Source: a virus. Taken from it: 21,686 nucleotides of DNA. Position numbers and translations under genes: made by a program. Where the stretch lies: positions 1 to 21,686 of IMG/VR virus record IMGVR_UViG_3300050120_000315, one strand, 5' to 3'. Below, in pieces: positions 824 through 21,611 of the stretch (its first letter is position 1; each line of letters opens with the position of its first letter). The notes beneath the pieces are model-generated. The model was not told the origin of the DNA, searched no databases, and saw nothing but the letters and a program-made list of their open reading frames with translations.

Positions 824-842
824 ATGTCAGGGTACTTGACGT
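824..842 (-). promoter_or_regulatory. Dispersed operator copy, repressor gene
   Basis: ATGTCA-N7-TGACGT differs by one base from the perfect 19-bp inverted repeat found elsewhere in the window. It lies in the 293-bp gap (750-1042) between the repressor and glutaredoxin genes. On the minus strand the TGACAT arm reads CTGACA, a possible -35 box, followed by an AT-rich stretch (TTGCATTTTTATTTG), though I see no confident -10. Position and family membership suggest repressor autoregulation; this is inference. Confidence 0.6.
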
Positions 843-937
843 GAGCCACGAGGGCTGTCCCGGAACCAACCCCTTAGCAACAGATTTGTCCAAAAATGAC
901 ATTTCGACCCCGATACAATCGCATGGGGCAGTACAAA

Positions 938-967
938 GGGTTAAATAACGAGGTTATTAGTTTACCC
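938..967 (-). terminator. AT-rich hairpin downstream of glutaredoxin
   Basis: AATAAC (944-949) and GTTATT (953-958) form a perfect stem with a 3-base loop, and outer GGGT/ACCC arms extend it with a small bulge. On the minus strand it lies about 75 bases after the glutaredoxin stop and is followed by TTTG. A terminator for the nrdB-grx unit is plausible, although the T-tract is short. The rest of the 750-1042 gap holds no gene that I can support; half a repeat (ATGTCA on the minus strand) also occurs near 897-902. Confidence 0.45.
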
Positions 968-1042
968 GTTGGCCGAGCACCCGAGGGTTACCAAAGCCTG
1001 CGTCACCAATTTCAGGTGAATACACGAGAGGGCCCTAGATGG

Positions 1043-1294
1043 CTAAGGCGCGTTAACTGTGACAATAAGCTCACTTGCGCCGCCGATAAACGCACTCGGC
1101 TTGCCGTTACTCCCTAGAGCAAAGACAGCGGGCCACGTGTTCCAACCATTTAGCTTATTCAGAAAGTCACGTTGTTCGGGTTCCGTTTCAAACATCACCG
1201 TAGAAAACTCAATCCCCTTGGCGGTTAGGAAGGTCTTCGCTCGCAGGCAATGACCGCAATCCGGCTTGGAATAGATCAGGTATTGCGCGGCCAT
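1043..1294 (-). CDS. Glutaredoxin
   Basis: An 83-residue single-domain thioredoxin-fold protein. The dithiol active site CGHC is at residues 14-17 after a first beta strand (YLIYSKPD). TWPAVF supplies the cis-proline loop and GGASEL the GG motif that binds glutathione. It begins 3 bases after the stop of nrdB, so it is translated from the nrdB message. The likely job is to re-reduce the disulfide formed on NrdA at each turnover, giving the phage its own reductant. Its length is normal for phage and bacterial glutaredoxins. NrdH-type specificity (thioredoxin reductase rather than glutathione) cannot be excluded from sequence. Confidence 0.85.
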   Translation of the reverse strand: MAAQYLIYSKPDCGHCLRAKTFLTAKGIEFSTVMFETEPEQRDFLNKLNGWNTWPAVFALGSNGKPSAFIGGASELIVTVNAP

Positions 1295-1297
1295 ATT

Positions 1298-2281
1298 TTA
1301 TGCCTGTCCGAGGAAATCGAAAGCATGCTCCCAGCCGGGAACCTCGCCCTTGCTATATTCCGTCGAACGACCCTCGAAGAAGTTGGTGTGGGTGGGGATG
1401 TTCGTCAGTGTGTCGAGCCACTCGAAGGGGTTGTTCTTGACGTTGTAGTTCTTCTTCAGGCCCAACTGCATCAGGCGCCGGTCCGCGATATAGCGGATAT
1501 ACTGCTTCGCTTCTGGCGGCGTCACTCCCTCAATGTGACCGATCCCGAAGGCTTGATCGATGAAGGCGTCTTCGAGCTTCACCATCGCGCGGCACGTCTC
1601 GTAAACGCGCTTCTTCGTGTCATCGTTCCAGACGCGGGGATGTTCCGCGATCAGGGCGTGGAACAGCTTCAGCATCGATTCCACGTGGTGGGTTTCATCG
1701 CGGATGGAATATTCCACCACCGTCGACATGCCCTTCATCAGGTTGCGCCGCTGGAAATTCATCAGCAGGGCGAAGCTGGAGAAAAGCTGCATCCCTTCGC
1801 CGAAGGCGCTGAAGACCGCGAGGTCCACGACCAGATCGGTGATCGACTTCGATCCGGTGTCGCGAGCGAACATGTACTCGTGCTTCTCTCGCATGGCCTT
1901 GTAGTCGTGAAAGGCCTTGTACTCGCCCTCCGAGATGCCGAGCGTGTCCATCAGGAGGGAGTAGGCGTGGATGTGATTGGCCTCGGCCGCGCCGAAAGAG
2001 AGGAGCATCATCCGCACCTCGGGCGTCTTGAACCGGGGGATATAGCGTTCCGCATAGCCCTGGCTCACGTCCAAGTCGGCTTGAGTGAAGAATCTGAAAA
2101 GCTGGGTCAGGAATTCCCTCTCGTCGTCCGTGAGTTTGGATTCCCAGTCCCGGAGATCGTCGGCCATCGGGATGTCGTCGGCCGACCAGTGCAGGTCGTC
2201 GAACATCGTCTTGAAGGCGTCGAACGCCCAGGGATGGGAATGCGGACGATAATAGTCGCGGCCGGTCAGCAGGGATGACAT
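1298..2281 (-). CDS. nrdB: Ribonucleotide reductase small subunit (class I)
   Basis: This 327-residue R2 protein houses the di-iron/tyrosyl radical cofactor that starts ribonucleotide reduction in NrdA. By alignment with E. coli R2 the ligands are Asp71 (DLDVSQG), Glu100 and His103 (EANHIHAY), Glu162 (FGEGMQ), and Glu196 and His199 (RDETHH). The radical tyrosine is Tyr107, at the same spacing from Glu100 as in E. coli (E115/Y122). All key residues are present, so it should be active as a standard class Ia-type subunit. The start at 2281 follows a weak CGGAA ribosome site. It is separated from nrdA by 96 bp containing an operator copy and a hairpin, so it may be transcribed on its own with glutaredoxin, which follows after 3 bases. 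Confidence 0.95.
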   Translation of the reverse strand: MSSLLTGRDYYRPHSHPWAFDAFKTMFDDLHWSADDIPMADDLRDWESKLTDDEREFLTQLFRFFTQADLDVSQGYAERYIPRFKTPEVRMMLLSFGAAEANHIHAYSLLMDTLGISEGEYKAFHDYKAMREKHEYMFARDTGSKSITDLVVDLAVFSAFGEGMQLFSSFALLMNFQRRNLMKGMSTVVEYSIRDETHHVESMLKLFHALIAEHPRVWNDDTKKRVYETCRAMVKLEDAFIDQAFGIGHIEGVTPPEAKQYIRYIADRRLMQLGLKKNYNVKNNPFEWLDTLTNIPTHTNFFEGRSTEYSKGEVPGWEHAFDFLGQA

Positions 2282-2298
2282 GGAGGATTCCGGAGCAC

Positions 2299-2316
2299 GG
2301 TCGCATGGACGCGACC
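2299..2316 (-). other. Hairpin in nrdB leader
   Basis: GGTCGC and GCGACC form a perfect 6-bp stem with a 6-base loop, ending 17 bases before the nrdB start. It has no T-tract, so it is not a classical terminator. It could modulate access to the weak ribosome site or stabilise the message. Confidence 0.4.
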
Positions 2317-2354
2317 ATAAAGGGGATTGGGGCTAGATTAAGGAGGCGTGACGG

Positions 2355-2373
2355 ATGTCACGTGGCCTGACAG
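2355..2373. promoter_or_regulatory. Dispersed operator copy, between nrdA and nrdB
   Basis: ATGTCA-N7-TGACAG lies 4 bases beyond the nrdA stop and 73 bp upstream of nrdB. The flanking GTGACGG is on the plus-strand left side, whereas the other copies carry the equivalent flank on the opposite side, so this copy appears inverted relative to the rest. On the minus strand a GTGACA followed by TTAATCTAG could be a promoter, but the spacing is not ideal. It is the only copy between the two reductase genes. Confidence 0.6.
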
Positions 2374-2377
2374 GGAA

Positions 2378-5194
2378 TTATCCCTGGCAGGCGAAGCAGT
2401 CATCGTCGGCCGACGCTTCGATCTTCGCCAGGGTGTCACGGACGAGATTGCCGAGATCGAGATCGGATTGATCAACGATGTCGACGCGGCGCCCTTCTTC
2501 CAGCCCCTTCGAGGGGTCCGGGTAAAAGTGAGACGCATCGAACGACACCGTTTTCGTCCGTTCAATCTCCGTATTGACGTTCTCACCACGCTTGGGCGCC
2601 GTGGAGCGCAGGTAGTAGAGTGACTTCACTCCACCCTCCCAGGCCCGGTAGTGGACGCGGGTGAGCGTCTCCGCGTCGGTGCCGGCGGCCATGAAGATGT
2701 TGACTGACTGACCCTGGCAGATGTCCTGGGTGCGGTCGATCGCCATCTCGATGACCGGCATCATGTCCATCTCGAACGCGCAGAGGAAGACGCGCTTCTC
2801 GTACTCGTCGAGGCAGTCCAGGTGCTGGACCGAACCCTCGGCGGCGGTGATCGACTTCCACACCGCGTCGGTGTTTTGGCCCTTCGATTCCAGCAAACGC
2901 ACGAGGTGCTTGTTCTTCACCACGAAGGAACCCGAGAGGGTCTTGTGCAGGAAGATGTTGGCCGGGATCGGCTCGGTTGATGGCGATGTATAGAGGAGGA
3001 TGGACGACGACGCGTTCGGCGCCAGTGCGAGCTTGTGCGCGAACCGCTCGCCGGTTCCGGCCATGTCTGGAGCCTCACCGCGCTCTGCACCGAGCTTGAG
3101 CGACGCCGCATCCGCTTGGGATCGGAGGTGGCGGAAGAGCATCTTGTTGATGTCCCGCGCCTCCTCGGAATCAAAGGCAATGTTCTTGCTTTGAAGGAGG
3201 GAGTGGAAACCCAGCAGCCCGAGGCCGACGCTGCGTTCGCGCGAGGCGGAATAGATAGCGTTCTCCAGGACCGCCGGCGCCGTGGTGATGAACACCTCCA
3301 GCGCGTTGTCGAGCATCCGCATCAGGTCTTCGATGAAGTCCGGATGGTCGATCCATTCGTCCTTCTTCTCGGCGTTCACCGACGAGAGGCAGCAGACGGC
3401 CGTCCGCATCTTGTCCAGATGGTCACGCCCGGAGTGGAGCATGATCTCGGTGCATTGACCGGCCAGCACCCCATTGAAGATGGCCTTGTGGCGCTCGGCT
3501 TCCGTGAAGCAGTACGTCGCTGTCTTGTAGGGCAGCCGATGGACGTCGGCGACGATCTGGGCGCGGTCGGGATCGATCGAAATCAGGCGCGGCTCGTGGC
3601 CGACGCTGTACTGCCCCATGATCAACCCGTTGGCGTCCCATGCGCTCAAGAGGAAACAGTTGCCGGTGTCGCTGGTGCGGATCACGGGCTGCATGCCGAG
3701 TTCGAGCGCCATCAGACGCATCTCTCGGATCAGGTCGGCGTCGTCATGAGCGAAGCCCAGGTAGTCGATGCCATCGACGTTGACCCATTCGCCCACGGCA
3801 TCCACGAGGCCACCGAACCAAGAACGCCGGGCCTCAACGGTCCAACGCAGCGGGACGAAGCCGGTCTTGACCGAACCGTGCTCGAAACGGATCGCGAGCA
3901 CACCATCAGCTTTCTTCATGTCGACCGAGAGCGTGGTCAGCCGCATCTTGGTCAGATCAGCCGCGTCCTCGTCGACCAGCAGCGTCAGAGCGCCATCGTC
4001 TTCGATGCCGGCCAGGACCGCGTAGCCGGCCGTATAGGCGGCGGCCGGGCCCATGTCCGTGTCGCCAGCGTTTGAGATTATGGGATGACTGGAGGGTTCA
4101 AGCACCGTGCCGTCGCGAAGCTGCGCCGCCCTGATCTCGACGCCGGCCGCGTCGTAGAACTTGTGGTCCGGCGTGCAGTCGAGATACGAGCCGTCATTGA
4201 ACCAGACCCGAACGAGTTCGGACTGCTCCGAGGTCCGCATGATCGTGGTCTCGCTCCAGTCCTGGCCGTTCCAGACCTTGACCTTTTCGTTTTCGAGCGA
4301 GCCGATTGGCAGGTAGCCGCTGGACGTCAGGAGTTCGGTGTTCGGCGCGACGCAGAGGTTCGACTGGCTCACCCTGAGGCCGAGGGCGCGCTGCGCCGCC
4401 GGCATCGCGCGGTTCGAAGTGTCCGTGAAATGCATGTACGGCTCGCCGGTCTGCATGCGTGTCTCGATCAGGAGACGCCACACCGCGCGAGCGCTGAGGT
4501 ACTTCGTGATCTTCTTCGAATGGGGATCGACGAGGGGGTAGTCGGTGTCGTCGCGAACGGCGTACATGAACGCGTCGGTGATGTTGACCGCGTTGTGGAG
4601 GTTCAGGGCCTTGCGGTTGACGTCGCCGCCGGCCTTCCGGATCGTGATGAACTCCAGGATGTTCGGATGGTCGATGTCCATGTACGCGGCATAGGACCCG
4701 CGCCGTGTGCCGCCCTGGCTCACGCTGAGGATGATGCGGTCCATCGCCGCGACGAAGGGAATGGGACCGGTCGAGCTTGAGCCTTGCGACGTTTCTTCGC
4801 CGTTGGCCCGGAGCGGCCAGTAGCCACCGACGCCACCGCCGAAACTGGAGAGCCAGCCCACCTCGGCCCAATGGCTGAAGATGCCCTCGCGGCTATCCTC
4901 GGCCGCCGCGAGGAAGCACGAGATCGGCTGGCCCCGAGTGGTGCCGCCATTTGAGAGGAGTGGGGTGGCGAACATGAACCAGCCGCGCGAGACATAGTCG
5001 TAGAGGCGCTGGGCGTGGTCTTCATCGTCCGCGAATGCTGCGGCGGCTCGGGCGAAGCCTTGTTGAGGGCTCGTCTCACCCGGCATCAGGTAGCGATCTT
5101 TGAGCGTGGTCTTGGAAAAATCGTAGAGGTCTTGGTCCCGGCTGAGGTCGATATTGATCACAGACGGAACGACGGACATATTACGGGCATCCAT
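2378..5194 (-). CDS. nrdA: Ribonucleotide reductase large subunit, intein-containing
   Basis: The 938-residue precursor should splice to a 638-residue class I large subunit that reduces ribonucleotides with NrdB. Catalytic residues are all present: Cys93 (GQPISC), the thiyl-radical Cys581 with Glu583 (CTE), Cys601 (CCLSSVN), the radical-transfer pair Tyr860-Tyr861 (KSLYYLR) and a C-terminal CFAC pair (Cys933/Cys936) for re-reduction. There is no room for an N-terminal ATP-cone, so overall activity control by dATP is probably missing. I chose the ATG at 5194 because a GAGGG ribosome site lies 8 bases upstream. A TTG at 5215 and an ATG at 5179 are alternatives without comparable sites. The gene stands alone behind a strong promoter, an operator copy and an attenuator-like hairpin. 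An intein lies directly in front of the catalytic cysteine. Confidence 0.95.
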   Translation of the reverse strand: MDARNMSVVPSVINIDLSRDQDLYDFSKTTLKDRYLMPGETSPQQGFARAAAAFADDEDHAQRLYDYVSRGWFMFATPLLSNGGTTRGQPISCFLAAAEDSREGIFSHWAEVGWLSSFGGGVGGYWPLRANGEETSQGSSSTGPIPFVAAMDRIILSVSQGGTRRGSYAAYMDIDHPNILEFITIRKAGGDVNRKALNLHNAVNITDAFMYAVRDDTDYPLVDPHSKKITKYLSARAVWRLLIETRMQTGEPYMHFTDTSNRAMPAAQRALGLRVSQSNLCVAPNTELLTSSGYLPIGSLENEKVKVWNGQDWSETTIMRTSEQSELVRVWFNDGSYLDCTPDHKFYDAAGVEIRAAQLRDGTVLEPSSHPIISNAGDTDMGPAAAYTAGYAVLAGIEDDGALTLLVDEDAADLTKMRLTTLSVDMKKADGVLAIRFEHGSVKTGFVPLRWTVEARRSWFGGLVDAVGEWVNVDGIDYLGFAHDDADLIREMRLMALELGMQPVIRTSDTGNCFLLSAWDANGLIMGQYSVGHEPRLISIDPDRAQIVADVHRLPYKTATYCFTEAERHKAIFNGVLAGQCTEIMLHSGRDHLDKMRTAVCCLSSVNAEKKDEWIDHPDFIEDLMRMLDNALEVFITTAPAVLENAIYSASRERSVGLGLLGFHSLLQSKNIAFDSEEARDINKMLFRHLRSQADAASLKLGAERGEAPDMAGTGERFAHKLALAPNASSSILLYTSPSTEPIPANIFLHKTLSGSFVVKNKHLVRLLESKGQNTDAVWKSITAAEGSVQHLDCLDEYEKRVFLCAFEMDMMPVIEMAIDRTQDICQGQSVNIFMAAGTDAETLTRVHYRAWEGGVKSLYYLRSTAPKRGENVNTEIERTKTVSFDASHFYPDPSKGLEEGRRVDIVDQSDLDLGNLVRDTLAKIEASADDDCFACQG
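3455..4354 (-). mobile_element. NrdA intein with decayed LAGLIDADG-like region
   Basis: The 300-residue protein insertion (precursor residues 281-580) begins with Cys281 in CVAPNTELL (block A), has the TPDH block B motif at 341-344 and ends in AIFNGVLAGQ (block F), followed by the extein Cys. The C-terminal residue is therefore Gln rather than Asn and the penultimate residue is Gly rather than His. That variant is known in some ribonucleotide reductase inteins and still splices. Residues 384-403 (TAGYAVLAGIEDDG) and 459-470 (WFGGLVDAVGEW) look like the two LAGLIDADG helices, but in the second the catalytic acid position is Val, so the homing nuclease is probably inactive. The insertion site is SQSNL|CTE, immediately before the radical cysteine. 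Confidence 0.92.
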
Positions 5195-5221
5195 TAAAAA
5201 AGCCCTCGAAATCAAGGGCTT
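5195..5221 (-). terminator. Terminator-like hairpin covering nrdA ribosome site (attenuator candidate)
   Basis: On the minus strand AAGCCCT pairs with AGGGCTT around an 8-base loop and is followed by a run of T, the form of an intrinsic terminator. It ends directly against the nrdA ATG, and the GAGGG ribosome site lies in its right arm. It is downstream of the predicted nrdA promoter, so it can only act on the nrdA transcript itself or on read-through from unit D. Confidence 0.7.
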
Positions 5222-5242
5222 AGCAGAGTTACAGGATTACGA

Positions 5243-5271
5243 AGTCTAGGGGAAAAGGCCCCCGATGTCAA
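5243..5271 (-). promoter_or_regulatory. nrdA promoter
   Basis: TTGACA (5266-5271, minus) and TAGACT (5243-5248) are spaced by 17 bp. The -10 also matches the alphaproteobacterial form CTANAW. Predicted transcription starts near 5236, giving a leader of about 42 bases that contains the attenuator-like hairpin. The -35 box is the right arm of the operator copy, so a bound protein would block polymerase. Confidence 0.65.
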
Positions 5272-5283
5272 GTTTCATGACAT
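5265..5283 (-). promoter_or_regulatory. Dispersed operator copy, nrdA
   Basis: A perfect ATGTCA-N7-TGACAT inverted repeat overlapping the -35 box of the nrdA promoter. On the minus strand it is preceded by GTGACGG, the flank shared with most copies. Confidence 0.7.
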
Positions 5284-5328
5284 CCGTCACATGCTTGAAC
5301 ACCGGGGCCGTTTCAGATCAAGCGCTTA

Positions 5329-5345
5329 GCGGACTTAGCGTCCGC
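5329..5345 (-). terminator. Hairpin at the end of unit D
   Basis: GCGGAC and GTCCGC form a 6-bp stem with a 5-base loop that contains the TAA stop of the 64-residue gene. No T-tract follows, so it is a weak terminator candidate for unit D or a 3' stabilising structure. Confidence 0.35.
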
Positions 5346-5529
5346 CCCAGGCTCCGAACCAGTGGCCGATGCCATGGATCGTGCCGATCGGCGCCAGGAT
5401 TGCGCCGGCGATCAGCAACAGCCATTCTTGCTGTTGGATACAGACGATGATGTGGGTCAGCCATCCGGCAACCAGGGTCACGCAGAACGTGATCCAGGCC
5501 AAAACGGCTCCAACGCTCAAGGTTTTCAC
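5335..5529 (-). CDS. Small two-helix membrane protein
   Basis: A 64-residue protein, almost all hydrophobic, with predicted transmembrane segments at about residues 5-30 and 36-52 and a short Gly/Trp-rich C-terminus (GHWFGAWGGR). It starts with GTG overlapping the stop of the upstream gene by 4 bases (GTGA), so it is translationally coupled. It is the last gene of unit D. I do not recognise the family. Two-helix proteins of this size occur among phage holins, but no endolysin or spanin gene is beside it, so I do not call it a holin. Confidence 0.65.
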   Translation of the reverse strand: MKTLSVGAVLAWITFCVTLVAGWLTHIIVCIQQQEWLLLIAGAILAPIGTIHGIGHWFGAWGGR

Positions 5530-5807
5530 TCAATCTCCTCTTCGAGAACTACTGCACCGTGATGCGCGATGAGCACAAGTCTCGCACCACAGGCCACGAT
5601 CTTGTTGTGAGGGTCATATATAAACCGGGCGACCTCATTCCCGGCGGCGTCCAATACTGAGACGCCGTGCCCATACTTCGCCTTTCCCGACTTCCCCTTC
5701 TGGACCCGGATCACCGGCTCATTCGTTTTGAACCGCGTGTTCCGGTCGACCGCCTGTCGATTGACGTTGACGACGGTCGTCTTCCGGGTGATCGGGATTG
5801 GGTCCAC
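5526..5807 (-). CDS. Hypothetical protein, 93 aa
   Basis: Unrecognised. The N-terminal half is basic (TRKTTVVNVNRQ, then KGKSGKAKYGHG) and the second half is predicted beta-rich (VSVLDAAGNEVARFIY, KIVACGARLVLI), ending in an acidic EEEIE. No signal peptide or membrane segment is present. The start is GTG at 5807, 7 bases after the stop of the upstream gene, without a strong ribosome site. It overlaps the downstream membrane-protein gene by 4 bases. High GC at third codon positions and the tight packing support it as a real gene of unit D. Confidence 0.65.
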   Translation of the reverse strand: MDPIPITRKTTVVNVNRQAVDRNTRFKTNEPVIRVQKGKSGKAKYGHGVSVLDAAGNEVARFIYDPHNKIVACGARLVLIAHHGAVVLEEEIE

Positions 5808-5814
5808 GGTCGGC

Positions 5815-6222
5815 TTACTTGCCGGCCTTGGGAGCGAACGACACGAAGGCCGGGGTCGCGGCCTTGGCGGCGATCTCGGTGGCGGTGACGCCGGCCACGG
5901 TCGGATCGATCAGGTTGGCCGCGCCGTCCAGGCACTTGGCCAGGGTCTCGGCGACCTCGCCGTGCGCGCCCGTCAAGGCGCCGGTGCCGAGCAGCGCTTC
6001 GGTGCGGCGCAGGGCCGAGCCGGTGGCGTTGCGGATCGCCGCGAGTTCATCGTGGGCGATGGTCTCGATCTTCTGCGTGCCGGCCTTGAGGTCCGCCTCG
6101 GCCTTCGCCAGGACGACGTCGTAGTCGTGCTCGACCGCCGCCTTGAGTTGGGTCAGCTTGGCGGGGATCGCCGGGTTGGTGAAGAAGTGGATCACCGTGG
6201 TGATCAGAGTCTTGAAAGACAT
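5815..6222 (-). CDS. Hypothetical helical protein, 135 aa
   Basis: Unrecognised. The protein opens with a short hydrophobic, amphipathic stretch (FKTLITTVIHFFTN) and continues as a long predicted helix (about residues 20-75) rich in Ala, Glu and Lys, with coiled-coil character. The C-terminal third is Ala/Thr/Val-rich. The ATG at 6222 is 18 bases after the upstream stop, with only a weak ribosome site (GGCTCCC). The N-terminus could associate with a membrane surface, but no clear transmembrane segment is visible. It lies in the middle of unit D among other small unknown genes. Confidence 0.65.
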   Translation of the reverse strand: MSFKTLITTVIHFFTNPAIPAKLTQLKAAVEHDYDVVLAKAEADLKAGTQKIETIAHDELAAIRNATGSALRRTEALLGTGALTGAHGEVAETLAKCLDGAANLIDPTVAGVTATEIAAKAATPAFVSFAPKAGK

Positions 6223-6240
6223 GGTCGGGAGCCTTCGGGG

Positions 6241-7114: not shown

Positions 7115-7415
7115 CGCTGTCGTCTCCTTGAATGAGCATTCCGAGGTAGGCTTCGACCTGCTTCTCGGTGGGGTGATCGATTGGGAAGACCGTCTCGATG
7201 ATCTTGTTGAGCGTGCCTTGCTGCTCGGCGATCATGATCGCCAACCCCGTGAGCAGCGCCGGCGACGCCGGCCTTTCATCGGAGAGGTCGGTCTTGATGT
7301 GGACGACGACGTCGAAGTCATCACCTTCGTCGCTGTCCCAAAGGCTGATGGAGAATTCCGGCGCCGCGCTCGGGTCTTCGTTGGAGGTCTGCGTGACGAC
7401 GATGGGATCGGACAT
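7104..7415 (-). CDS. Hypothetical acidic protein, 103 aa
   Basis: Unrecognised. It is the first gene of unit D, starting with ATG behind an AAGG ribosome site 7 bases upstream, and lies about 35 bases downstream of an operator copy. The protein is acidic with a beta segment (DFDVVVHIKTDLSDE), a hydrophobic helix (ALLTGLAIMIAEQQG) and a second helix (LNKIIETVF). The layout resembles the following gene and may reflect duplication. First position behind a regulated promoter-like element suggests early or strong expression; that is inference. Confidence 0.65.
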   Translation of the reverse strand: MSDPIVVTQTSNEDPSAAPEFSISLWDSDEGDDFDVVVHIKTDLSDERPASPALLTGLAIMIAEQQGTLNKIIETVFPIDHPTEKQVEAYLGMLIQGDDSVVQ

Positions 7416-7450
7416 GGACTGCCTTGACTGAGGGAACTTGGTTAATGGTC

Positions 7451-7476
7451 ATGTCATCGTTCATGACAGCGGTCAA
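7451..7476 (-). promoter_or_regulatory. Dispersed operator copy, unit D
   Basis: ATGTCA-N7-TGACAG (7451-7469) with the adjoining half-site CGGTCA (7470-7475). On the minus strand this reads TTTCTTGACCGCTGTCATG, nearly identical to the copies before units A and B. It fills the gap between the thyX stop (7495) and the first gene of unit D (7415). Confidence 0.68.
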
Positions 7477-7494
7477 GAAATGCGGCGCCGATAT

Positions 7495-9211: not shown

Positions 9212-9218
9212 GTAAATC

Positions 9219-13343: not shown

Positions 13344-13345
13344 GA

Positions 13346-13429: not shown

Positions 13430-13434
13430 GAGCG

Positions 13435-14025: not shown

Positions 14026-14064
14026 CCTTGCTTAACTTAAAAAGTGAATTTGCTTAGAAGTCGA

Positions 14065-14079
14065 AACCCAGCTTGGGTT
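14065..14079 (-). terminator. Small hairpin after the membrane-protein gene
   Basis: On the minus strand AACCCA and TGGGTT pair around AGC, overlapping the TAA stop. It is followed by TTCG and then an AT-rich stretch with CTTTTTAAG. It is a weak terminator or processing hairpin, with a short stem. Confidence 0.35.
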
Positions 14080-14479: not shown

Positions 14480-14503
14480 CGGGTGTTCCTTGGGTATGCC
14501 CCG

Positions 14504-14532
14504 ATTAACCACGAGGCAGTTTCTATGTCAAG
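14504..14532 (-). promoter_or_regulatory. Unit C promoter
   Basis: TTGACA (14527-14532, minus) and GTTAAT (14504-14509) are 17 bp apart. The wider GGTTAATC resembles the alphaproteobacterial GCTANAWC -10. The predicted start of transcription falls about 15-20 bases before the GTG at 14479, leaving room for its AAGGA site. The -35 box is the right arm of the operator copy. Confidence 0.6.
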
Positions 14533-14544
14533 AAACGTGACATG
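14526..14544 (-). promoter_or_regulatory. Dispersed operator copy, unit C
   Basis: A perfect ATGTCA-N7-TGACAT inverted repeat in the gap between the DNA polymerase stop and the first gene of unit C, overlapping the -35 box. Confidence 0.7.
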
Positions 14545-14565
14545 CGTAAGTAAAACAGCACACGA

Positions 14566-16860
14566 TCAGTGGGTTTCCGACCAGTTGCGCCCGAACTTCG
14601 GCTTGCCGATTTCGACCGGCAGGCGGAAGCCCACACGCTCGCCGGCATAGGTCGCGGCCTCTTCGACGTAGCGTTCGGCCGCAGCCATGACGCGGGGGTC
14701 GTCGCGGACGCAGATTTGGAGTTCGTCGTGAATCCAGGCGACGATGACGAAGTCGCCGTTCCAGCCGTGGACGAAGCCCGCTTCCTCCATGAAGCTCTCG
14801 AACGAAACGGCCCAGATTTTGGCGAGCGTTGCGCCCATCCCCTGGAGCAGGGTGTTGAGCGCGGCATGCTTGGACCGCGTCATCAGCCGGCGGCCGTCCA
14901 GGGCCGTGACAAAGCCCTGGCGCGCGGACTTCTGGACCGACTTGATCAGCAGCTTCAGCGCCGGGAAACGGCTCATCAATCGCTCGCGAGACTTCGCGCC
15001 CAGCGCTGTACAGGCGGCGACGTTGTTCGCCAGCGTCGGGTCGATGATCGTCCCGAGCTTGAAGTCGCCGGCGCCGTAGAGGAAGGCGTAAATCCAGGTC
15101 TTGGCGGTGTCGCGGGAGTCGAGTTCCAGGGCGGCTTGGTGGGCGTCGTGGACGTCGGCTTCGAGCAGCAGCTTGGCGTAGACGCCGTTGTCGAACTCCC
15201 ACATCGCGTCGGCGAGGGCCCGGAGTTCGATCCCCTGCTGGTCGGCGCCCATGAGGAGCCAGCCCGGCGGCGAGACGAAGAGGCGACGACAGTCCCAGCC
15301 ATGGTCGCCGGCGCGGCCCTTCATCAAGGTCGCTCTGGTCTTGATCTTTCCTTCGTCGTCGCGGTCGTACTCGCCCGTCGTCTTGTTCACGACGGGCACG
15401 CCGACAAACTGGACCCCGTCGGGATCGAGCATCGGTGTCAGGCCGGTCTGGTCGAAGACTTCTCGACCCGACGAGTCAGCCGAGATGCGGCCGTAGATGA
15501 GCTTGCCGTCGATGCCCTTGCGCGCGACGACATCGGACTCCATCCACTGGAGGAGCTTCTTGAACACCACGCGGGGGACCTGGGCGATGTTCGGCTTGGA
15601 GTGGCTGGCGCGGTTCGTCACCGTGCCGCCGGGATTGATCCGGGGATGGATGCGCCCGTCTGGCTGGCAGTTGCCGATCCAGGATTCGGCGCCATCGGCC
15701 AACTGCCCGAGGCGCTTCTTGTAGTAGAAGATTTCGGCGAGTTCGGTGCAGATCGGGATCGTGTGCCCAAGGTCGCGCAGGACCTCGTCGTTCACGACCG
15801 GATTGTTCTTCTCGGTGAACTCCTGCGGTTCCCAGAGGTAGATCGACTTCAGCCGGTCGATGATCATCGGCCGCGAGTTCGGGTTGAAATCCTTCAGGAC
15901 GATCGGGCAGTAGGCGCAGCCTTCGGTCTTGTCGCCGCCCTTCGCGATCGGGTCCTTGAACTTCATGGACCGCTTGGGAATCTGGACCTGACCCCACATT
16001 TTGCGGGAGTCGTCCTCGCCAAACTCCGGGCGCGGAGCATCGCGGTGCCACTTCGCCGCCGTCAGCCATGTGCCGAAGTGCTCGTGAGCGATATCGGCCT
16101 TGGTGTCGTGCTCCTCGCGCAGCAGTCCTTCGAGAAGGTGCGCCTCGTCGCGATCGAAGTAGATGCCGTTCTGCTCGACCCGAGCCATCAGGTCGCAGAT
16201 CATGTGTTCGAGGATCGTGGCGTCCTCGGACCAGTCGACGAGTTCGATCTTGCGCCACAGGGCCTCCGTTGGGTCGAGGTCCTGACAGCCGTAGTCTTCC
16301 ATCTCCTGCGACCACTCGGCCCAGGTCGCCCAGGATGTAAAAGCCTTGAGGTCTTTGAAATCGTTGGCCCAGTTCGGGTCCGCTTCCCACCACTCGGCCG
16401 CCCGCACTTTCATGCGCGCGCTGTATTCGTCCTTCGGAAAACCGAGGCGCATGCCCCAGGCTTCGAGCGTGTGGGAACCGATGAGCTTGCCGTCGAGTTC
16501 GCCGCGCTTCCAGCGGCGGAAGTCGCGTTCCTTCTCGTCGCTGAACATCATGCGGGCCATGATCAGCGTGTCGCGCATCGTGCCCGTGGGCGCGAACAGG
16601 TCGCCGTAGACCTTCCAGAGCGCGTAGTTGTCGAAGCCGATGATGTTGTGGCCGACGATGAGTCCGGCCTCGTTCAGCATCTTCAATCCCTCGGGGATCG
16701 AGTGCTCTTCGTCGTTGTGACGGAAACGGAAGGTCTCGCGACTATCGATGTCGCGGATCGCCAAAACGTGGACCCGATCCAACTCGCGGAGCAGGCCGTT
16801 CGTCTCGATGTCATACAGCAGGCGTCGACCAGCGACGACCGGTTCGGGGGGAAGTTGCAA
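14566..16860 (-). CDS. Family A DNA polymerase, T7-like, with 3'-5' exonuclease
   Basis: A 764-residue replicative polymerase. The proofreading domain has Exo I YDIETNG (Asp17, Glu19), Exo II GFDNY (Asp77) and Exo III YGCQD (Tyr190, Asp194). In the polymerase domain motif A is GADQQGIELR (Asp540), motif B is RDTAKTWIYAFLYGAG (Arg583, Lys587), almost identical to T7, and motif C is HDE (711-713). Compared with T7 polymerase (704 residues) there is an extra segment of roughly 80 residues at about 431-515, between NIAQVPR and CRRLF, and a CAYC pair at 315-318. The start is TTG at 16860, supported by AGGA 8 bases upstream. It is the last gene of unit B, 75 bp after the cupin-like gene. Confidence 0.95.
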   Translation of the reverse strand: MQLPPEPVVAGRRLLYDIETNGLLRELDRVHVLAIRDIDSRETFRFRHNDEEHSIPEGLKMLNEAGLIVGHNIIGFDNYALWKVYGDLFAPTGTMRDTLIMARMMFSDEKERDFRRWKRGELDGKLIGSHTLEAWGMRLGFPKDEYSARMKVRAAEWWEADPNWANDFKDLKAFTSWATWAEWSQEMEDYGCQDLDPTEALWRKIELVDWSEDATILEHMICDLMARVEQNGIYFDRDEAHLLEGLLREEHDTKADIAHEHFGTWLTAAKWHRDAPRPEFGEDDSRKMWGQVQIPKRSMKFKDPIAKGGDKTEGCAYCPIVLKDFNPNSRPMIIDRLKSIYLWEPQEFTEKNNPVVNDEVLRDLGHTIPICTELAEIFYYKKRLGQLADGAESWIGNCQPDGRIHPRINPGGTVTNRASHSKPNIAQVPRVVFKKLLQWMESDVVARKGIDGKLIYGRISADSSGREVFDQTGLTPMLDPDGVQFVGVPVVNKTTGEYDRDDEGKIKTRATLMKGRAGDHGWDCRRLFVSPPGWLLMGADQQGIELRALADAMWEFDNGVYAKLLLEADVHDAHQAALELDSRDTAKTWIYAFLYGAGDFKLGTIIDPTLANNVAACTALGAKSRERLMSRFPALKLLIKSVQKSARQGFVTALDGRRLMTRSKHAALNTLLQGMGATLAKIWAVSFESFMEEAGFVHGWNGDFVIVAWIHDELQICVRDDPRVMAAAERYVEEAATYAGERVGFRLPVEIGKPKFGRNWSETH

Positions 16861-16873
16861 GGAGGGTCCTTCA

Positions 16874-16896
16874 CCCGACGCATTTCCGTCGTCGGG
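16874..16896 (-). other. Hairpin between cupin-like gene and DNA polymerase
   Basis: CCCGACG and CGTCGGG form a 7-bp stem with a 9-base loop, just upstream of the AGGA ribosome site of the polymerase gene. There is no T-tract. It may slow transcription or tune polymerase translation. The 75-bp gap holds no operator copy. Confidence 0.45.
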
Positions 16897-16935
16897 CTAT
16901 TGGGCGTGGCCGGGACGCGGCGCTGCCGTGGGTAG

Positions 16936-17493
16936 TCAGTCGGACGAGTTCAGGGCCTCGACGACGTAGGCGTAGAGTTGCTCGGGAGAGAGTTGGAAGC
17001 GGTCGAAACCGACATCGAAGTCGACGCCGCGCCGGCAGACCGAGTTGGCGTGCAGCGTGGTCTCTTCATGCTTCTTCAGCACCGTGACCACGATCCCTTC
17101 GCAGGGCGTGTGATGGTACTCCATCGCCGGCATGTGATACTCTTCGCCGGCGCCGTAGAACTCGATGCCGCGCCCGATCACGTTGACGTCGCACACCGGG
17201 TAGCTGAGCCGACTGCCCGTTGGCATCCTCGGGCCGTTGTGGCTGATCAAGAGGTGTGAGCCGTCTCCCGGCTTGACGTATTCGAGGTCGCAGCGCTGGT
17301 TGACCTGCTGCCCCTTCAGCACACGCGAGGTGAAGCTGAAGCGGTGGTTGTGGACGGCCGAGTGCTCGTAGCAGGCGCGGCGCGGCAGATCGGGATGCCA
17401 GACGTGCATCCGCTGACTGCCTTCGAGCACGAGTTGGATGAACCCGAGCCCGTGCAGGGAGATCGTCTCTTTGGTCGGGGTAAAATCTTTCAC
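16936..17493 (-). CDS. Cupin-like hypothetical protein, 185 aa
   Basis: Probably a beta-barrel cupin-fold protein of unknown reaction. HNHRFSFTSRVLKG (48-61) resembles cupin motif 1 with two His spaced as metal ligands. MPAMEYHHTPCEG and IVVTVLKK may form the second motif. Many His and aromatic residues are present and no membrane segment. It starts with GTG overlapping the methyltransferase stop (GTGA) and precedes the polymerase gene. Dioxygenase or isomerase activity, or binding of a small ligand, are all possible; I do not assign one. Its coupling to a DNA methyltransferase allows a role in base modification, but this is speculation. Confidence 0.6.
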   Translation of the reverse strand: MKDFTPTKETISLHGLGFIQLVLEGSQRMHVWHPDLPRRACYEHSAVHNHRFSFTSRVLKGQQVNQRCDLEYVKPGDGSHLLISHNGPRMPTGSRLSYPVCDVNVIGRGIEFYGAGEEYHMPAMEYHHTPCEGIVVTVLKKHEETTLHANSVCRRGVDFDVGFDRFQLSPEQLYAYVVEALNSSD

Positions 17494-18296
17494 GGAAGCA
17501 CTTTCATCAGATTACGGATCAGTTCGGCCGCGACTTGGGGCACGATGGCATTTCCGTATGCTCGGACCTGCTCCAGGCTGGTGGGAAACCCATCGCCCAG
17601 CGGCAGAATTCCGGCTGGAGCCCGTCGGCGGTTGTTGTCGGGTCCGAGGAAGACCAGGGAGCCGTCCCATGGTCCCTCAGCAGCATCGAGACATAGCGGA
17701 CGCCGACCTGCGCCTTCCCGCCACCGGGCTTCCGCCCGGTCAAAGAAGTTCCCTTCGGCGGCATCTTGCCGCCGGCTCCATCGCTCACCGCAATCGTTGG
17801 ATAGAGCGCAAAGCCAAAGCCGTTCGCGTCGCGTGGGCGCGTTGACGCCACAAGCCGGGACAAGGGCCGCCCTGCTGGTGTAGTTGTGTCGCTCCAGGTC
17901 AGCGAGCACTCCGTCGAGCGCCAGCCGGACGATTGGCGGCACGTTTTCAGCCAGGACGATAGGAGGTCGGCCGCCGGCGATGAGGCGGTCGAACTCGGGC
18001 CAGAGATGTCGGTCGTCGTCGGCGCCACGTTGGTCTCCGGCTTCGGAAAAGGGTTGGCAGGGAAAACCGCCGGTCCAGATCGGTTCGTCGTCTGGCCAGT
18101 GCGCGAGACGCAGCGCGTAGGCGAAACCACCGATGCCCGAGAACAGGTGGACGTGGTCGAATCCCTTGAGGTCCTCGGGCTGCACGTCGCGGATCGAGCG
18201 CGTGTCGACCTCGCCATCGGGGATCAGCCCTTTGGCGATGAGTTCCCGCGTCCATTCCGCGAGGAATGGATCGAAGTCGTTGTAATAAGAGGACAT
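17490..18296 (-). CDS. DNA (cytosine-5) methyltransferase
   Basis: A 268-residue C5 methyltransferase. Motif I is HLFSGIGGFAYAL (50-62), motif IV GGFPCQPFS with catalytic Cys80, motif VI AENVP (116-120), motif VIII APTRRERLW (153-161), and motif X YGNAIVPQVAAELI near the C-terminus. The target-recognition region between VIII and X is short, so the enzyme is compact. The ATG at 18296 has no ribosome site and lies a few bases after an operator-like element, so a leaderless message is possible. Part of the 3' half is also open in the +1 frame, where it encodes family-like sequence (see findings). No restriction enzyme is nearby; protection against host restriction or regulation is the likely role. 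Confidence 0.9.
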   Translation of the reverse strand: MSSYYNDFDPFLAEWTRELIAKGLIPDGEVDTRSIRDVQPEDLKGFDHVHLFSGIGGFAYALRLAHWPDDEPIWTGGFPCQPFSEAGDQRGADDDRHLWPEFDRLIAGGRPPIVLAENVPPIVRLALDGVLADLERHNYTSRAALVPACGVNAPTRRERLWLCALSNDCGERWSRRQDAAEGNFFDRAEARWREGAGRRPLCLDAAEGPWDGSLVFLGPDNNRRRAPAGILPLGDGFPTSLEQVRAYGNAIVPQVAAELIRNLMKVLP

Positions 18297-18319
18297 TGAC
18301 TACCAAAAGCCACTAATCG

Positions 18320-18344
18320 TGACATGGGTCAAGAAACGCGACAC
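18320..18344 (-). promoter_or_regulatory. Degenerate tandem operator copy, unit B
   Basis: TGACAT (18320-18325) followed by GGGTCA-N7-CGACAC (18326-18344). The minus strand reads GTCGCGTTTCTTGACCCATGTCACGA, almost the same as the element before unit A, but the distal arm next to the gene is lost. The TTGACC could serve as a -35 box, placing the transcription start at about the methyltransferase ATG. Confidence 0.6.
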
Positions 18345-18348
18345 CGAA

Positions 18349-18660
18349 TTATCGGAACGCGGTCACCGGCAGAATCCGCTCCTGCTCGATCACCTCGCCG
18401 TCGCTGCACGTCGCGGCATAGGTGAGGAGATAGTCAACGCCCGGCAGGCCGGCGATGACCTCCTGGCTCACCACGGCGCCGGCGACGGTCGCGTTGCCAG
18501 AGAGGATGTCCGTGGGCGTCGCGTCGACACCGAGGTAGACCCCGGCCGTAACGGCGGCCGAGGCGATCGTGACGCCGGTCGGGAGCAGGGTGGTGTAGTC
18601 GACCGGCTCGATAAGGGTCTCGCCCACGAGCTTCGGCGGTAGGGAAACGGGCGTCGTCAT
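18349..18660 (-). CDS. Hypothetical beta-rich protein, 103 aa
   Basis: The sequence has the periodic look of small phage proteins with a beta-sandwich (ILSGNATVAGAVVSQEVIAGLPGVDYLLTYAATCSDGEV). Similar small proteins occur near virion genes in many tailed phages, but I cannot name the family, and here it sits beside DNA-metabolism genes. The start overlaps the previous stop by ATGA. No signal peptide is evident. It is the last gene of unit A, and its stop lies directly next to the operator copy of unit B. It could be a minor structural or decoration protein; the evidence is only resemblance in pattern. Confidence 0.7.
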   Translation of the reverse strand: MTTPVSLPPKLVGETLIEPVDYTTLLPTGVTIASAAVTAGVYLGVDATPTDILSGNATVAGAVVSQEVIAGLPGVDYLLTYAATCSDGEVIEQERILPVTAFR

Positions 18661-19289
18661 TGCGGACTCCAGATGGCGTCGGACATGCTCACGAGCGCCT
18701 TGGCGACCTCGGCGGATTTGTCCTTGGGGAGGGTGGTGGTGTGGTCGCCCCAGTTTGGCGGCGCCGAGTTGAAGCTGAGCTTGATCACCCCGACGAAGAG
18801 TTGGGCGCCAAGCGTCAGGCAGCCGTCCTGGTCCAGGAAGGCTGCGGTGCTGCATAGTTGCGAGACGCCCTGGGAGACGCGCTCCAGGCCGATCTCGATC
18901 GCATCCTTACGGGCGTTGTACTTGAGGAAGACCGCGCGGCCGTGATCGTCGAGGCGGATGATCCGGCGCAGCTTGCGCGGATCGCAGGCTTCCTTCCAGA
19001 CGCGCTCGATCAGCGCGATGAACTCGCCCTTCTTGTCGCCGCTGACCAACTGGGGAACCATGAACTCGTCGGCCATCGAGGCGCCGATGTCGATGAAGGG
19101 TCGGGCTTCGAGGAAGCCGAGTTCGCGGTCCATCTCCAGGAGGTGGACACGGTCGATCTCGACGTGCTTGACCTGGAGACCGTTGGTGCTGCGGTAGCCG
19201 ACGCCGTACTGGATGAAGTTCGAGTCGTCGGCGTAGTGGGCGTAGAGAAAGAGCGAGCGCCGGCGGTACGGCAGGGTTTCGTAGATCAC
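18657..19289 (-). CDS. Hypothetical protein, 210 aa
   Basis: Unrecognised. It is an alpha/beta protein without membrane segments. Notable stretches are YRRRSLFLYAHYADD, DRVHLLEMDRELGFLEARPFID, KKGEFIALIERVWKEA and a C-terminal part with NWGDHTTTLPKDKSAEVAKAL. The start is GTG at 19289, overlapping the stop of the metallophosphoesterase gene by GTGA, with GGAAAGG 7 bases upstream. The frame remains open further upstream to 19748, but that portion is an Arg-rich shadow of the neighbouring gene. Tight coupling suggests it functions together with the metallophosphoesterase. Confidence 0.72.
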   Translation of the reverse strand: MIYETLPYRRRSLFLYAHYADDSNFIQYGVGYRSTNGLQVKHVEIDRVHLLEMDRELGFLEARPFIDIGASMADEFMVPQLVSGDKKGEFIALIERVWKEACDPRKLRRIIRLDDHGRAVFLKYNARKDAIEIGLERVSQGVSQLCSTAAFLDQDGCLTLGAQLFVGVIKLSFNSAPPNWGDHTTTLPKDKSAEVAKALVSMSDAIWSPQ

Positions 19290-20923
19290 AGGTGAGCCTT
19301 TCCGTCCTGAATCGTCAGGAGCGTCCGCTTGCCGGACTGGTATTGGAGGGCGTGGGACCAGGACCAGGACGAGGCGCCCCGGTTGTAGCCGAGGTCCATT
19401 TTCGAGGAGGTCCCAGTCTGCATCGAGCCATCGGTGATGCCGGCGGAGTGGGAGTGGCCGATCGTGGTCTTCGCCGCCATGCGGGCGAATTGCTTGATCG
19501 CGCCGCGCGCGCCGTTGGCGCCGGTGTGTCCGTGATTGGCGTGCTCGACGCCGCCGACGACGAAGCTGTCGTCCTCGATCAGGAACCGGACACCGTTGCA
19601 GCCGTACTCGAATGCCTCGCGCATGACGTGCTCGAAGATCGAGAAACGATCGAGGCCCTGCTCGATCGCCAAGAGCGAGGCGAGCGTGCATTGGATGAAG
19701 AAGCGGGCGTTCGCTGGGTCGGTGCGGAAGTCGCTTGTTTTCAGCCACTTCAGGAGGGCTTGGTCGTGGTTGGAGTCGACGACCACGACTTCGCGGTGGG
19801 GGTCTTCGAGCGCGGACAGGAAGAGCGCGACCTCGCGGAGTTCCTGCTCGACCGACTCCTTCTGATTGATGTGGAGACGGAAGCGATCATAGGGGTCGGC
19901 GATCGAGTGGTGATTCCGCGCCCGGAAGTCACTGACGTCGTGGACGAACAGGTACTCGGGCTGGAGCGTGTCGATGAGCGACGGCTCTTCGGTCTGGAGC
20001 CAGATGCGATTGCCATTCGGATCGCGGTCTTCGGTCGGATAGATGCCGAAGGTCACCTTCGACACTTCCGGATCGATCTGGGCGACGTGGACGTCACCGG
20101 GCGTCAGGCATTGGGCCCGGTGGCCCTCGGTCACGACGCCGTTGAAGACGAACCGATCGAGATCGTAGAACGAGCCATCGTCGTCGTCGGCGATGAGATG
20201 GCGACAGAAGTGACGGCCGTCCTTGTCGAGTTCGACGATGACGGCGCCAAAGACGTGGTGGAAGGCGGCCTTGATGCCGGCTTTCTTCGGCACATAGTTG
20301 GGCAGCGTGACAGCGCCGGTGGTCATGATCTGCTTCGCCGGCAGCGACTTCATCGTCGGCACGCTGCGGAGTTCGATCTTGGCGTGGGGGAAGATGCCCC
20401 ACCGTTCTCGGGTGTAGGTCTCGAAGCCCGAGAGCGGCGATACGGCTGTCGGCAGGGTGTTCATCTCGCCGCAGAAATCGACGAGGTTGTTCATGCGCAG
20501 GCGTTCGCTGCGCATGTACGGCATGATCTGAGACGGCCAGAAGACGTGGTTCTTCGAGTGGTCCTCGAAGAGCGATTTGTTGTAGGTGAAGCCGGCGATG
20601 ATCAGTTCGGCGTTGCGGAACTGATTGAGCCACTCGACGTAGGCTTCGAGGTTGCGCAGGAACGGCTCGTGGAGCTTCGTGCCGTCCTGGGCCGAGGTGT
20701 AGATGAAGGACTTGTCCAGGCCGTCGGAGAAGTCATCGGCGATCTCGGTCACGTCCGGCGCCGGTCGATGCCCGAAGGGATCGTTCCGCATCTTGTAGAG
20801 TCGGTGCTGGATGGTGGTCCGGGGGATGCCGTGCTTGCGGGAGAACGGCCGTTGACCGCCGGCCTTCCTGACGGCTGCGAGCAAGGCTTCGCCGTCGAGG
20901 GCGTCGAATTCTTCGGATGTCAT
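19286..20923 (-). CDS. Metallophosphoesterase resembling phage T5 A1, with N-terminal HTH
   Basis: A 545-residue protein. Residues about 15-46 (GQRPFSRKHGIPRTTIQHRL) look like a helix-turn-helix. The C-terminal half shows the ordered metal-binding motifs of calcineurin-like phosphoesterases: GDVH (276-279, D-x-H), HDVSD (328-332), DSNHD (383-387), HANHGH (461-466) and GHSH (489-492). The architecture resembles what I recall of A1-type proteins of T5-like phages, which act early in infection and are linked to host DNA breakdown and transfer. The match is from memory and not proven. It begins 2 bases after the methyltransferase stop. A nuclease that spares methylated phage DNA would fit this neighbourhood, as inference. 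Confidence 0.8.
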   Translation of the reverse strand: MTSEEFDALDGEALLAAVRKAGGQRPFSRKHGIPRTTIQHRLYKMRNDPFGHRPAPDVTEIADDFSDGLDKSFIYTSAQDGTKLHEPFLRNLEAYVEWLNQFRNAELIIAGFTYNKSLFEDHSKNHVFWPSQIMPYMRSERLRMNNLVDFCGEMNTLPTAVSPLSGFETYTRERWGIFPHAKIELRSVPTMKSLPAKQIMTTGAVTLPNYVPKKAGIKAAFHHVFGAVIVELDKDGRHFCRHLIADDDDGSFYDLDRFVFNGVVTEGHRAQCLTPGDVHVAQIDPEVSKVTFGIYPTEDRDPNGNRIWLQTEEPSLIDTLQPEYLFVHDVSDFRARNHHSIADPYDRFRLHINQKESVEQELREVALFLSALEDPHREVVVVDSNHDQALLKWLKTSDFRTDPANARFFIQCTLASLLAIEQGLDRFSIFEHVMREAFEYGCNGVRFLIEDDSFVVGGVEHANHGHTGANGARGAIKQFARMAAKTTIGHSHSAGITDGSMQTGTSSKMDLGYNRGASSWSWSHALQYQSGKRTLLTIQDGKAHL

Positions 20924-20925
20924 GA

Positions 20926-21564
20926 TTACTCGGCGTAAAGGTCGGCGGGGAGGGCCGACTGGTCTCGGGACCAGTCCCAGCAGAACCAGGAATAGGAGAA
21001 GCGCGGGCTGCTCGCCTTGACGCCCGGCGTGGGTTCAATCCAGCGCGGGCGATAGAGCAGGGTGATCTTGCCGGCGTAGGCCGGGTGATCCTTGAAGATG
21101 TCGCGGCGCCCTTTGGCGCAGGACCATTCGTGACGACAGAGGACGGCGACGACGCCGCGATCGGGCTCGGTCAGCTTGAGCGCGTGGCGGACGAACTGCT
21201 CGGCTTCATCGCCATAAGGCGGGTTGGTGATGATCGCCGACGGCACGAAACCGGCCATCGCCTGAATTTCCTTCAGGTTCTGGACCACCAGGAAGTCTGC
21301 GAGGCAGTCCGGCTCAAAGCCCTCGTAGGCGGCGATGTCGGAGGAAAAGACGTTCAAGCCTTCGTCGGCCAGGACCTTGGAGATCGCGCCGTTACCGCAC
21401 GCGGGCTCCCAGACGCTATGGACGGTCCCGACGGCTTGCTCCCACATACTCAAGAAAGAGCGCGTGCATTTCGTCGGCGTGGGATAGAAGTCGAGCGGCC
21501 GTCGCGGATAGTGGGTCTGACCCAGCATGCTGGGGTCGACGCGGGACGCTTCTGATTGGTGCAT
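20926..21564 (-). CDS. DNA adenine (N6)-type methyltransferase
   Basis: A 212-residue SAM-dependent methyltransferase. DFYPTP (25-30) precedes motif I VWEPACGNGAISKVL (51-65), SSDI (74-77) is the acidic loop, and motif IV NPPY (114-117) is the amino-methyltransferase catalytic signature. Motif IV NPPY is used by N6-adenine and sometimes N4-cytosine enzymes. The C-terminus (FSYSWFCWDW) is typical of phage members. No clear target-recognition domain is visible, suggesting short or relaxed specificity. It is the first gene of unit A, and its ATG lies 9 bases from an operator copy and has no ribosome site, consistent with a leaderless message. A start at Met13 is possible. Confidence 0.85.
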   Translation of the reverse strand: MHQSEASRVDPSMLGQTHYPRRPLDFYPTPTKCTRSFLSMWEQAVGTVHSVWEPACGNGAISKVLADEGLNVFSSDIAAYEGFEPDCLADFLVVQNLKEIQAMAGFVPSAIITNPPYGDEAEQFVRHALKLTEPDRGVVAVLCRHEWSCAKGRRDIFKDHPAYAGKITLLYRPRWIEPTPGVKASSPRFSYSWFCWDWSRDQSALPADLYAE

Positions 21565-21573
21565 AGGACCGAA

Positions 21574-21611
21574 ATGTCATCTTTCGTGACATCGGTCAAG
21601 AAACGCGACAT
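21574..21611 (-). promoter_or_regulatory. Tandem dispersed operator, unit A
   Basis: A perfect ATGTCA-N7-TGACAT (21574-21592) abuts a second copy CGGTCA-N7-CGACAT (21593-21611); the centres are 19 bp apart. The minus strand contains TTTCTTGACCGATGTCACG, matching the unit B and D elements. Beyond it, 21612-21686 holds no gene I can support. Confidence 0.7.

Follow-up and report, generated by a model that had tools for sequence, protein, structure and literature searches.

What does a short inverted repeat achieve by standing at the head of one transcription unit after another in a large phage? The question is posed by the window analysed here, the whole 21.7-kb stretch (21,686 nucleotides) of the IMG/VR record IMGVR_UViG_3300050120_000315, in which a 19-bp palindrome of the form ATGTCA-N7-TGACAT recurs ahead of the minus-strand units, a unit being defined by gene layout. 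The window comes from a phiCbK-like phage (Dolichocephalovirinae), of whose genome it is a part. The A1-type DNA transfer protein encoded in it shares 66% identity with its counterpart in the Caulobacter phage CcrSC, 62% with that of phiCbK and 59% with that of the Brevundimonas phage Bajun, and the gene order of the window is that of the subfamily: methyltransferase, A1, C5-methyltransferase (C5-MTase), T7-like polymerase, exonucleases, Dda-like helicase, deoxynucleoside monophosphate (dNMP) kinase, thyX, small genes, nrdA, nrdB and a helix-turn-helix (HTH) gene. A search against Rfam brought no match. In this phage and its relatives, almost every operon for replication, structural or lysis genes has the element on its promoter. 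We consider it probable that the repeats are operators for a single dimeric repressor of the lambda-CI/P22-C2 type that the phage itself encodes, most likely in the gene at 48-749. The sites in the window, with the longest unit that they precede, are as follows.

824-842, minus strand: palindrome ACGTCAAGTACCCTGACAT with one mismatch (20.8 bits), 84 bp ahead of the CI-like gene's own start codon.
2355-2373, minus strand: palindrome CTGTCAGGCCACGTGACAT with one mismatch (17.9 bits), ahead of nrdB-glutaredoxin.
5265-5283, minus strand: exact palindrome ATGTCATGAAACTTGACAT ahead of nrdA, its right arm being the -35 box of TTGACA-N17-TAGACT (promoter match 10/12).
7451-7488, minus strand: tandem pair of a strong site (7451-7469, one mismatch) and a weak one (7470-7488), ahead of the small-gene unit starting at 7415.
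14525-14543, minus strand: exact palindrome ATGTCACGTTTCTTGACAT (27.6 bits), ahead of the unit from 14512 to 7495.
14512 to 7495, minus strand: unit of exonuclease, RecE, nucleotidyltransferase, RNA ligase-like, helicase, dNMP kinase and thyX genes.
18307-18344, minus strand: tandem pair, 18307-18325 and 18326-18344 (19.8 and 11.4 bits), ahead of the DNA methyltransferase/DNA polymerase unit, the methyltransferase gene holding the C5-MTase position of the relatives.
21574-21611, minus strand: tandem pair of an exact copy and a 16.6-bit partner 19 bp away, ahead of the methyltransferase/A1 unit.

The palindrome is far more frequent than chance would have it. Three exact copies occur in the window, and six, eight and 22 at up to one, two and three mismatches, where Markov-1 simulations of the window give 0.00, 0.01, 0.32 and 4.24; the backward pattern, which together with reversed matrices served as control in the motif searches, has no match at up to two mismatches. 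The six best copies (at most one mismatch) are all intergenic, each ahead of a minus-strand unit, and conservation reaches inward, with G at position 8 and C at position 12 mostly retained (ATGTCANGNNNCNTGACAT). At 13 bits, nine of the ten sites found with the window's own matrix are intergenic against a base rate of 15%, as are six of six found with the phiCbK matrix, these and all later intergenic fractions being approximate, given a simple gene caller and a few genes known to be misplaced. In the gaps inside units, ahead of thyX, helicase, nucleotidyltransferase, RecE, PolIII-like exonuclease and DNA polymerase, nothing scores 9 bits or more.

The initial annotation had reported the motif at seven places, three of them perfect in both arms, before the minus-strand units and absent from the gaps within them, and this picture holds throughout. 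Most of its coordinates stand as given, save that the site placed at 14526-14544 lies 1 bp lower, at 14525-14543. The supposed single degenerate copy at 18320-18344 turns out to be a tandem pair, and the site at 7451-7469 is present, if not alone, for a weaker partner adjoins it. The three tandem pairs (7451/7470, 18307/18326 and 21574/21593) share an identical 19-bp step.

Unbiased searches recover the 19-bp palindrome genome-wide in phiCbK, CcrSC, CcrColossus, CcrPW and Domovoi, and a TTGAC-anchored search recovers it in Bajun. Pattern searches of whole relatives find the motif in phiCbK, CcrBL10, CcrRogue, CcrBL9, CcrSC and the 279-kb metagenomic phage G001, with no match to the backward pattern. 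While the architecture is shared, the half-sites vary by genus (TGTCG, TGCCAG, ACGTCG, TGACG). A palindrome-only expectation-maximisation (EM) search, unseeded and blind to TTGAC, returned the 19-bp palindrome as its best solution in the window (log-likelihood ratio, LLR, 63 against 29 in shuffled controls), phiCbK (227 against 35), Colossus (204 against 27) and CcrPW (196 against 30), and as a further sharp solution, not the best one, in Domovoi (216 against 29) and CcrSC (140 against 31). The free palindrome search slid into degenerate solutions in Bajun, Domovoi, CcrSC and Gurke, and seedless counting of exact arms was unsuccessful in phiCbK because its arms are asymmetric. In G001, the strongest palindromic motif found by the free search is a different one, GTCACTTNAAGTGAC.

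The sites also keep to the gaps between genes, and to the same gaps. Applied to phiCbK at 13 bits, the window matrix finds 34 sites, 76% of them intergenic against a base rate of 19%, and its reverse finds one; across genomes, 71-95% of sites are intergenic in most pairs (base rates 15-22%), with almost none found by reversed matrices. Each scored genome holds 18-52 intergenic sites at this threshold, and 73-95% of matches are intergenic against 19-22%. In a gene-by-gene comparison of gaps in six phages, sites precede nrdA in 6/6, the C5-MTase in 6/6 and the methyltransferase of the A1 unit (A1-MTase) in 5/5, and are found at the unit after thyX in 4/6 and in the gap after DNA polymerase in 5/6. 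In none of the six does a site of at least 13 bits stand ahead of thyX, helicase, nucleotidyltransferase, RecE, DNA polymerase or A1. The element ahead of the A1-MTase is seen in phiCbK, Colossus, CcrSC, Bajun, Gurke and G001; Gurke (ATGTTGTAATTCTTGACG) and G001 (GTGTCAGAATCCTTGACAC) carry it at nrdA likewise, and phiCbK, Colossus, Domovoi and Bajun each have a counterpart to the site at 14525-14543, either in that very gap or in the one that follows. Among the element promoters of phiCbK are those of the endolysin (78364), nrdA (86940) and MTase (101253) genes. The checks on which the initial annotation had staked its proposal of a phage-wide operator or promoter system, namely whether the motif is as common inside genes as between them and whether related phages keep it at matching gaps, were both run, and neither refuted it.

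The sites also stand in a fixed relation to promoters. A mixture model anchored on TTGAC, and given no prior for what lies ahead of it, arrived at TGTCGTGAATC|TTGAC in phiCbK, TGCCAGnATTC|TTGAC in Colossus and CcrPW, TGCCGTAAnTC|TTGAC in Domovoi and ACGTCGTGAATC|TTGAC in Bajun, with LLRs of 206-288 against 51-64 in row-shuffled controls. Among 152 element promoters of five phages, the A at -10 position 2 lies exactly N17 from TTGACA in 76-87%, against 0-47% at other spacings; TA is present at -10 in 31-49% of elements, and T and G are enriched at the extended -10 position. The elements thus bear the sigma70-type signature of TTGACA, a 17-bp spacer and TAnnnT, which within the window is clear at nrdA only. 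Since the A is fixed at N17 from TTGACA, the palindrome covers about -47 to -29 and takes in the -35 hexamer. The overlap of the arms with -35-like TTGAC boxes, already suspected by the initial annotation, is hence a fixed -35/N17/-10 geometry seen in several independent genomes, and together with the shared architecture, the orthologous gaps and the intergenic bias it bears out the proposed operator-promoter system. A composite operator architecture across genera is well supported.

It is exceedingly improbable that the palindrome is a by-product of sigma70 -35 boxes joined to chance upstream sequence. TTGACA does belong to the element, as such an explanation would have it. However, the upstream arm is conserved, as the margin of the TTGAC-anchored model over shuffled rows indicates; TTGACA promoters elsewhere in these genomes are preceded by different sequences; and palindromes at tandem positions may lack TTGACA altogether, for example GCGCCAGGATTCCTGGCTA in Colossus. 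The anchored model and the palindrome-only search refute the by-product explanation between them.

If the sites are operators, which protein reads them? The favoured candidate lies at one end of the window.

48-749, minus strand: CI-like repressor candidate of 233 amino acids, with a Cro/C1-type HTH domain at about residues 42-106 and a LexA/186-CI-like C-terminal domain at about residues 110-231.

This protein matches Pfam HTH_3 (E 1.6e-14) and a PHROG of transcriptional repressors, and HTH_3 is found in 9/9 orthologues. Profile matches in the PDB are 434 Cro, P22 C2 and the 434 and lambda repressors. In an AlphaFold model built from a seven-sequence alignment (mean predicted local distance difference test score, pLDDT, of 77), the HTH domain superposes on P22 C2 (Z 13.3; 0.8 A over 65 residues), the beta-rich C-terminal domain resembles those of LexA and 186 CI (Z 12-13), and the whole matches a full-length lambda-186 CI hybrid. 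The Pfam S24 signal is weak in the orthologues (1/9, E 0.047), and, judged from the sequences, SOS cleavage is unlikely, with the LexA catalytic lysine lost and the serine retained in some members only. A single orthologue stands beside nrdAB in every complete relative examined (in phiCbK it is gp309, NC_019405 80860-81660), and one is present in G001; each genome has several XRE genes, of which this is the one with an orthologue at the nrd locus across these phages. Querying viral contigs with the repressor protein returned no relatives, while searches with nrdB and A1 and of phage records did.

The recognition helix of this nrd-linked protein differs between genera, as do the half-sites, and most orthologues have an insertion of 10-21 residues separating helices 2 and 3 of the HTH, which is absent from the proteins of the window and CcrSC. 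The insertion accompanies a tandem step of 22-23 bp and its absence a step of 19-20 bp (the window and CcrSC), but this amounts to one phylogenetic split. Strong sites stand ahead of the gene itself in the window and in CcrSC.

Another phage protein could be the reader, be it TgrL, the A1 protein or an unrecognised factor, and with several XRE genes in each genome there is no shortage of candidates; we regard this as unlikely. TgrL is a phage XRE repressor with demonstrated binding to host DNA (PMC10688885), and A1 is conserved and has been proposed to alter RNA polymerase (PMC3556154). Yet the TgrL recognition helix (TFQQVQKYE) is nearly invariant, being the same in phiCbK, Colossus, CcrPW, CcrSC and Bajun while their half-sites differ, which disfavours it, and A1 is here without a demonstrated specific DNA-binding domain. 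TgrL (gp216 in phiCbK) resembles the candidate in being an XRE repressor encoded by the same phages; it differs in being a separate gene that lacks the candidate's C-terminal domain, has host promoters as its known targets and has a helix that does not track the half-sites.

That a host regulator uses the sites, such as a Caulobacter XRE protein or GcrA acting with CcrM, seems very unlikely. Phage infection is indeed influenced by host XRE proteins and by CtrA (PMC10688885, PMC9437464), and in phiCbK, Colossus, CcrPW and Bajun the middle of the element, GAATC/GATTC, forms a GANTC methylation site. However, the window elements lack GANTC, which is present in some genera only, so that methylation is set aside as the purpose of the element. 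The phiCbK consensus occurs in bacterial genomes at about the level of chance (49 matches against about 60 expected), with none in a Caulobacter record. Phages of the same Caulobacter host use different half-sites, which disfavours a host factor and argues for a phage-encoded reader. Across the phiCbK genome, GANTC is depleted (303 seen against 458 expected under a Markov model), yet 21 copies centre elements.

We return to the CI-like repressor. A dimer would read the two half-sites of the palindrome, and since the downstream half-site at most sites doubles as the -35 hexamer (TTGACA) of a promoter of the sigma70 type, spaced at N17 and in many cases provided with an extended -10, the bound dimer should shut out RNA polymerase. 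Tandem sites could permit cooperative binding of two dimers. In the three tandem pairs of the window, the distal site holds TTGACC and the proximal site provides both the TG and the -10 region; with a dimer on each, the entire core promoter would therefore be covered. We infer that the 48-749 protein binds these sites and that its binding represses and supports dormancy: the nucleotide-metabolism, replication, virion and lysis operons would be silenced together, and in the window clade the repressor's own gene as well. The early region of phiCbK (138-193 kb) is depleted of sites, not devoid of them (5 of 51, about 10.6 expected), and CcrPW has almost none at 160-280 kb; the repressor would therefore leave host-takeover genes freer. 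With the phiCbK early region not empty, the sites find no support as markers of a single temporal class. Dormancy here may mean episomal pseudolysogeny or lytic deferment, and differing half-sites could define separate immunity types.

Several observations weigh against the CI-like repressor. In phiCbK, Colossus, Domovoi and Bajun, the candidate's own gene has weak autoregulatory sites or none. A near-identical recognition helix is common to Colossus, Domovoi, Gurke and G001, whose half-sites nevertheless differ, and a simple residue-to-base code was sought and did not emerge. Pseudolysogens stay open to superinfection (PMC12195562), which an abundant trans-acting repressor should block. Finally, outside the window clade the second tandem site lies more often upstream, near -60, than downstream, as at a CI-activated promoter; the layout resembles that of lambda OR1 and OR2 at PRM.

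This last point would suit an activator site, at which the same or another phage protein beside sigma would switch on promoters of a middle or late class, as would the fixed position relative to the -10 box and the weak -10 boxes of some element promoters. We hold activation to be doubtful. The palindrome spans a full near-consensus TTGACA, so that sigma and a dimer would compete for one major groove, and the -10 region likewise falls within the proximal site of the window's tandem pairs. Moreover, the elements precede early replication genes as well as middle and late structural and lysis genes (PMC10688885), hence no single temporal class.

Among known systems, the initial annotation had pointed to the operators of P1 and the stoperators of L5. 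The dispersal is indeed P1-like, with many intergenic sites at orthologous positions as in dispersed repressor-operator systems of the P1 and L5 kind; L5 fits less well. L5-type repressors, which bind an asymmetric site as monomers, are described as also halting elongation at sites scattered over the genome (PMC9283540), whereas the sites here, though likewise many and dispersed for one repressor, are palindromic and locked to -35/N17/-10 promoters. In P1, one C1 repressor is thought to hold many operators across a plasmid-like genome. P1 operators are asymmetric; those of the phiCbK-like phages are symmetric and built into the -35 box. These phages, too, have been reported as episomes (PMC12195562).

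The closer parallel is with the operators of CI/P22-C2-type dimeric repressors, dispersed as in P1. With lambda CI, P22 C2 and 434 the element shares palindromic operators of comparable size that overlap sigma70 promoters, a tandem spacing of about two helical turns and a candidate protein of HTH and LexA-like C-terminal domains. It differs in having tens of sites, one per operon, over 200-350 kb in place of a clustered switch region, and no integrase-based lysogeny is known for phiCbK-like phages. Phage 186 CI supplies the closest full-length fold match (the lambda-186 hybrid and the 186 repressor), and the candidate, like it, appears to lack an intact LexA-type catalytic dyad; identity is only about 15%. 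Phage 186 uses few operators.

These findings bear on a standing puzzle. Dolichocephalovirinae persist as episomal pseudolysogens by a mechanism that is unknown, with a repressor possibly missing (PMC12195562), and a CtrA-based lytic deferment, its mechanism likewise unknown, has been proposed alongside CtrA sites in the terminal repeats and a temperate prediction by BACPHLIP (PMC9437464). Silencing by the predicted repressor fits both the episomal pseudolysogeny and that prediction. The conserved CI-like gene and the genome-wide operator set thus constitute a concrete candidate for the mechanism in the model phage phiCbK. One may go further and suppose, tentatively and short of conviction, that phiCbK-like phages, long deemed virulent, carry a full temperate-style system: a CI-like protein and tens of operators embedded in -35 boxes, genus-specific half-sites acting as immunity types, and a genome kept silent as an episome without integration, possibly in concert with host CtrA sites as reporters of the cell cycle. 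The element itself is no CtrA site (TTAA-N7-TTAA; PMC9437464). Per genome, 13-16 of 40-44 elements have the CtrA half-site GTTAAC no more than 45 bp away, 3-6 times the expectation, and a link between cell-cycle control and the operators is possible.

The literature searched, which did not take in subscription papers, holds no earlier description of the element, nor is it described in the accessible portions of the work on phiCbK genomics (PMC3556154), on TgrL and infection RNA sequencing (PMC10688885) or in PMC9437464. Dispersed operators of one repressor are already known from P1 and L5; what is new is that tens of promoters carry them in their -35 boxes, and this in giant phages supposed to be virulent. 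If true, this would provide a promoter map for genomes of 200-350 kb, make superinfection-immunity groups predictable from half-site sequence and add a case of a repressor and its operators drifting together over tens of sites.

A few minor observations concern the promoters and the genes behind them. In CcrSC and Gurke there is a second class of promoters, whose upstream sequence is fixed (TGCAAGAAAnCTG|TTGACA and TTTTCTgaaAAAaAGngG|TTGACA, respectively), clustered toward one genome end. The nrdA gene of the window (2378-5194, minus strand) seems to contain an intein (Pfam Intein_splicing, E 0.002), and nrdA of phiCbK and Colossus is annotated likewise. Between the operator-promoter and nrdA, at 5200-5221 on the minus strand, lies a terminator-like hairpin, AAGCCCTTGATTTCGAGGGCTT, followed by TTTT; the eight other genomes examined all have a hairpin there as well, though with a different sequence, and this looks like a conserved attenuator of nrdA. 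In phiCbK, at 80502-80812, a plus-strand element promoter is followed about 300 bp on by an annotated terminator with no annotated gene between them, which may point to a small RNA or a short gene.

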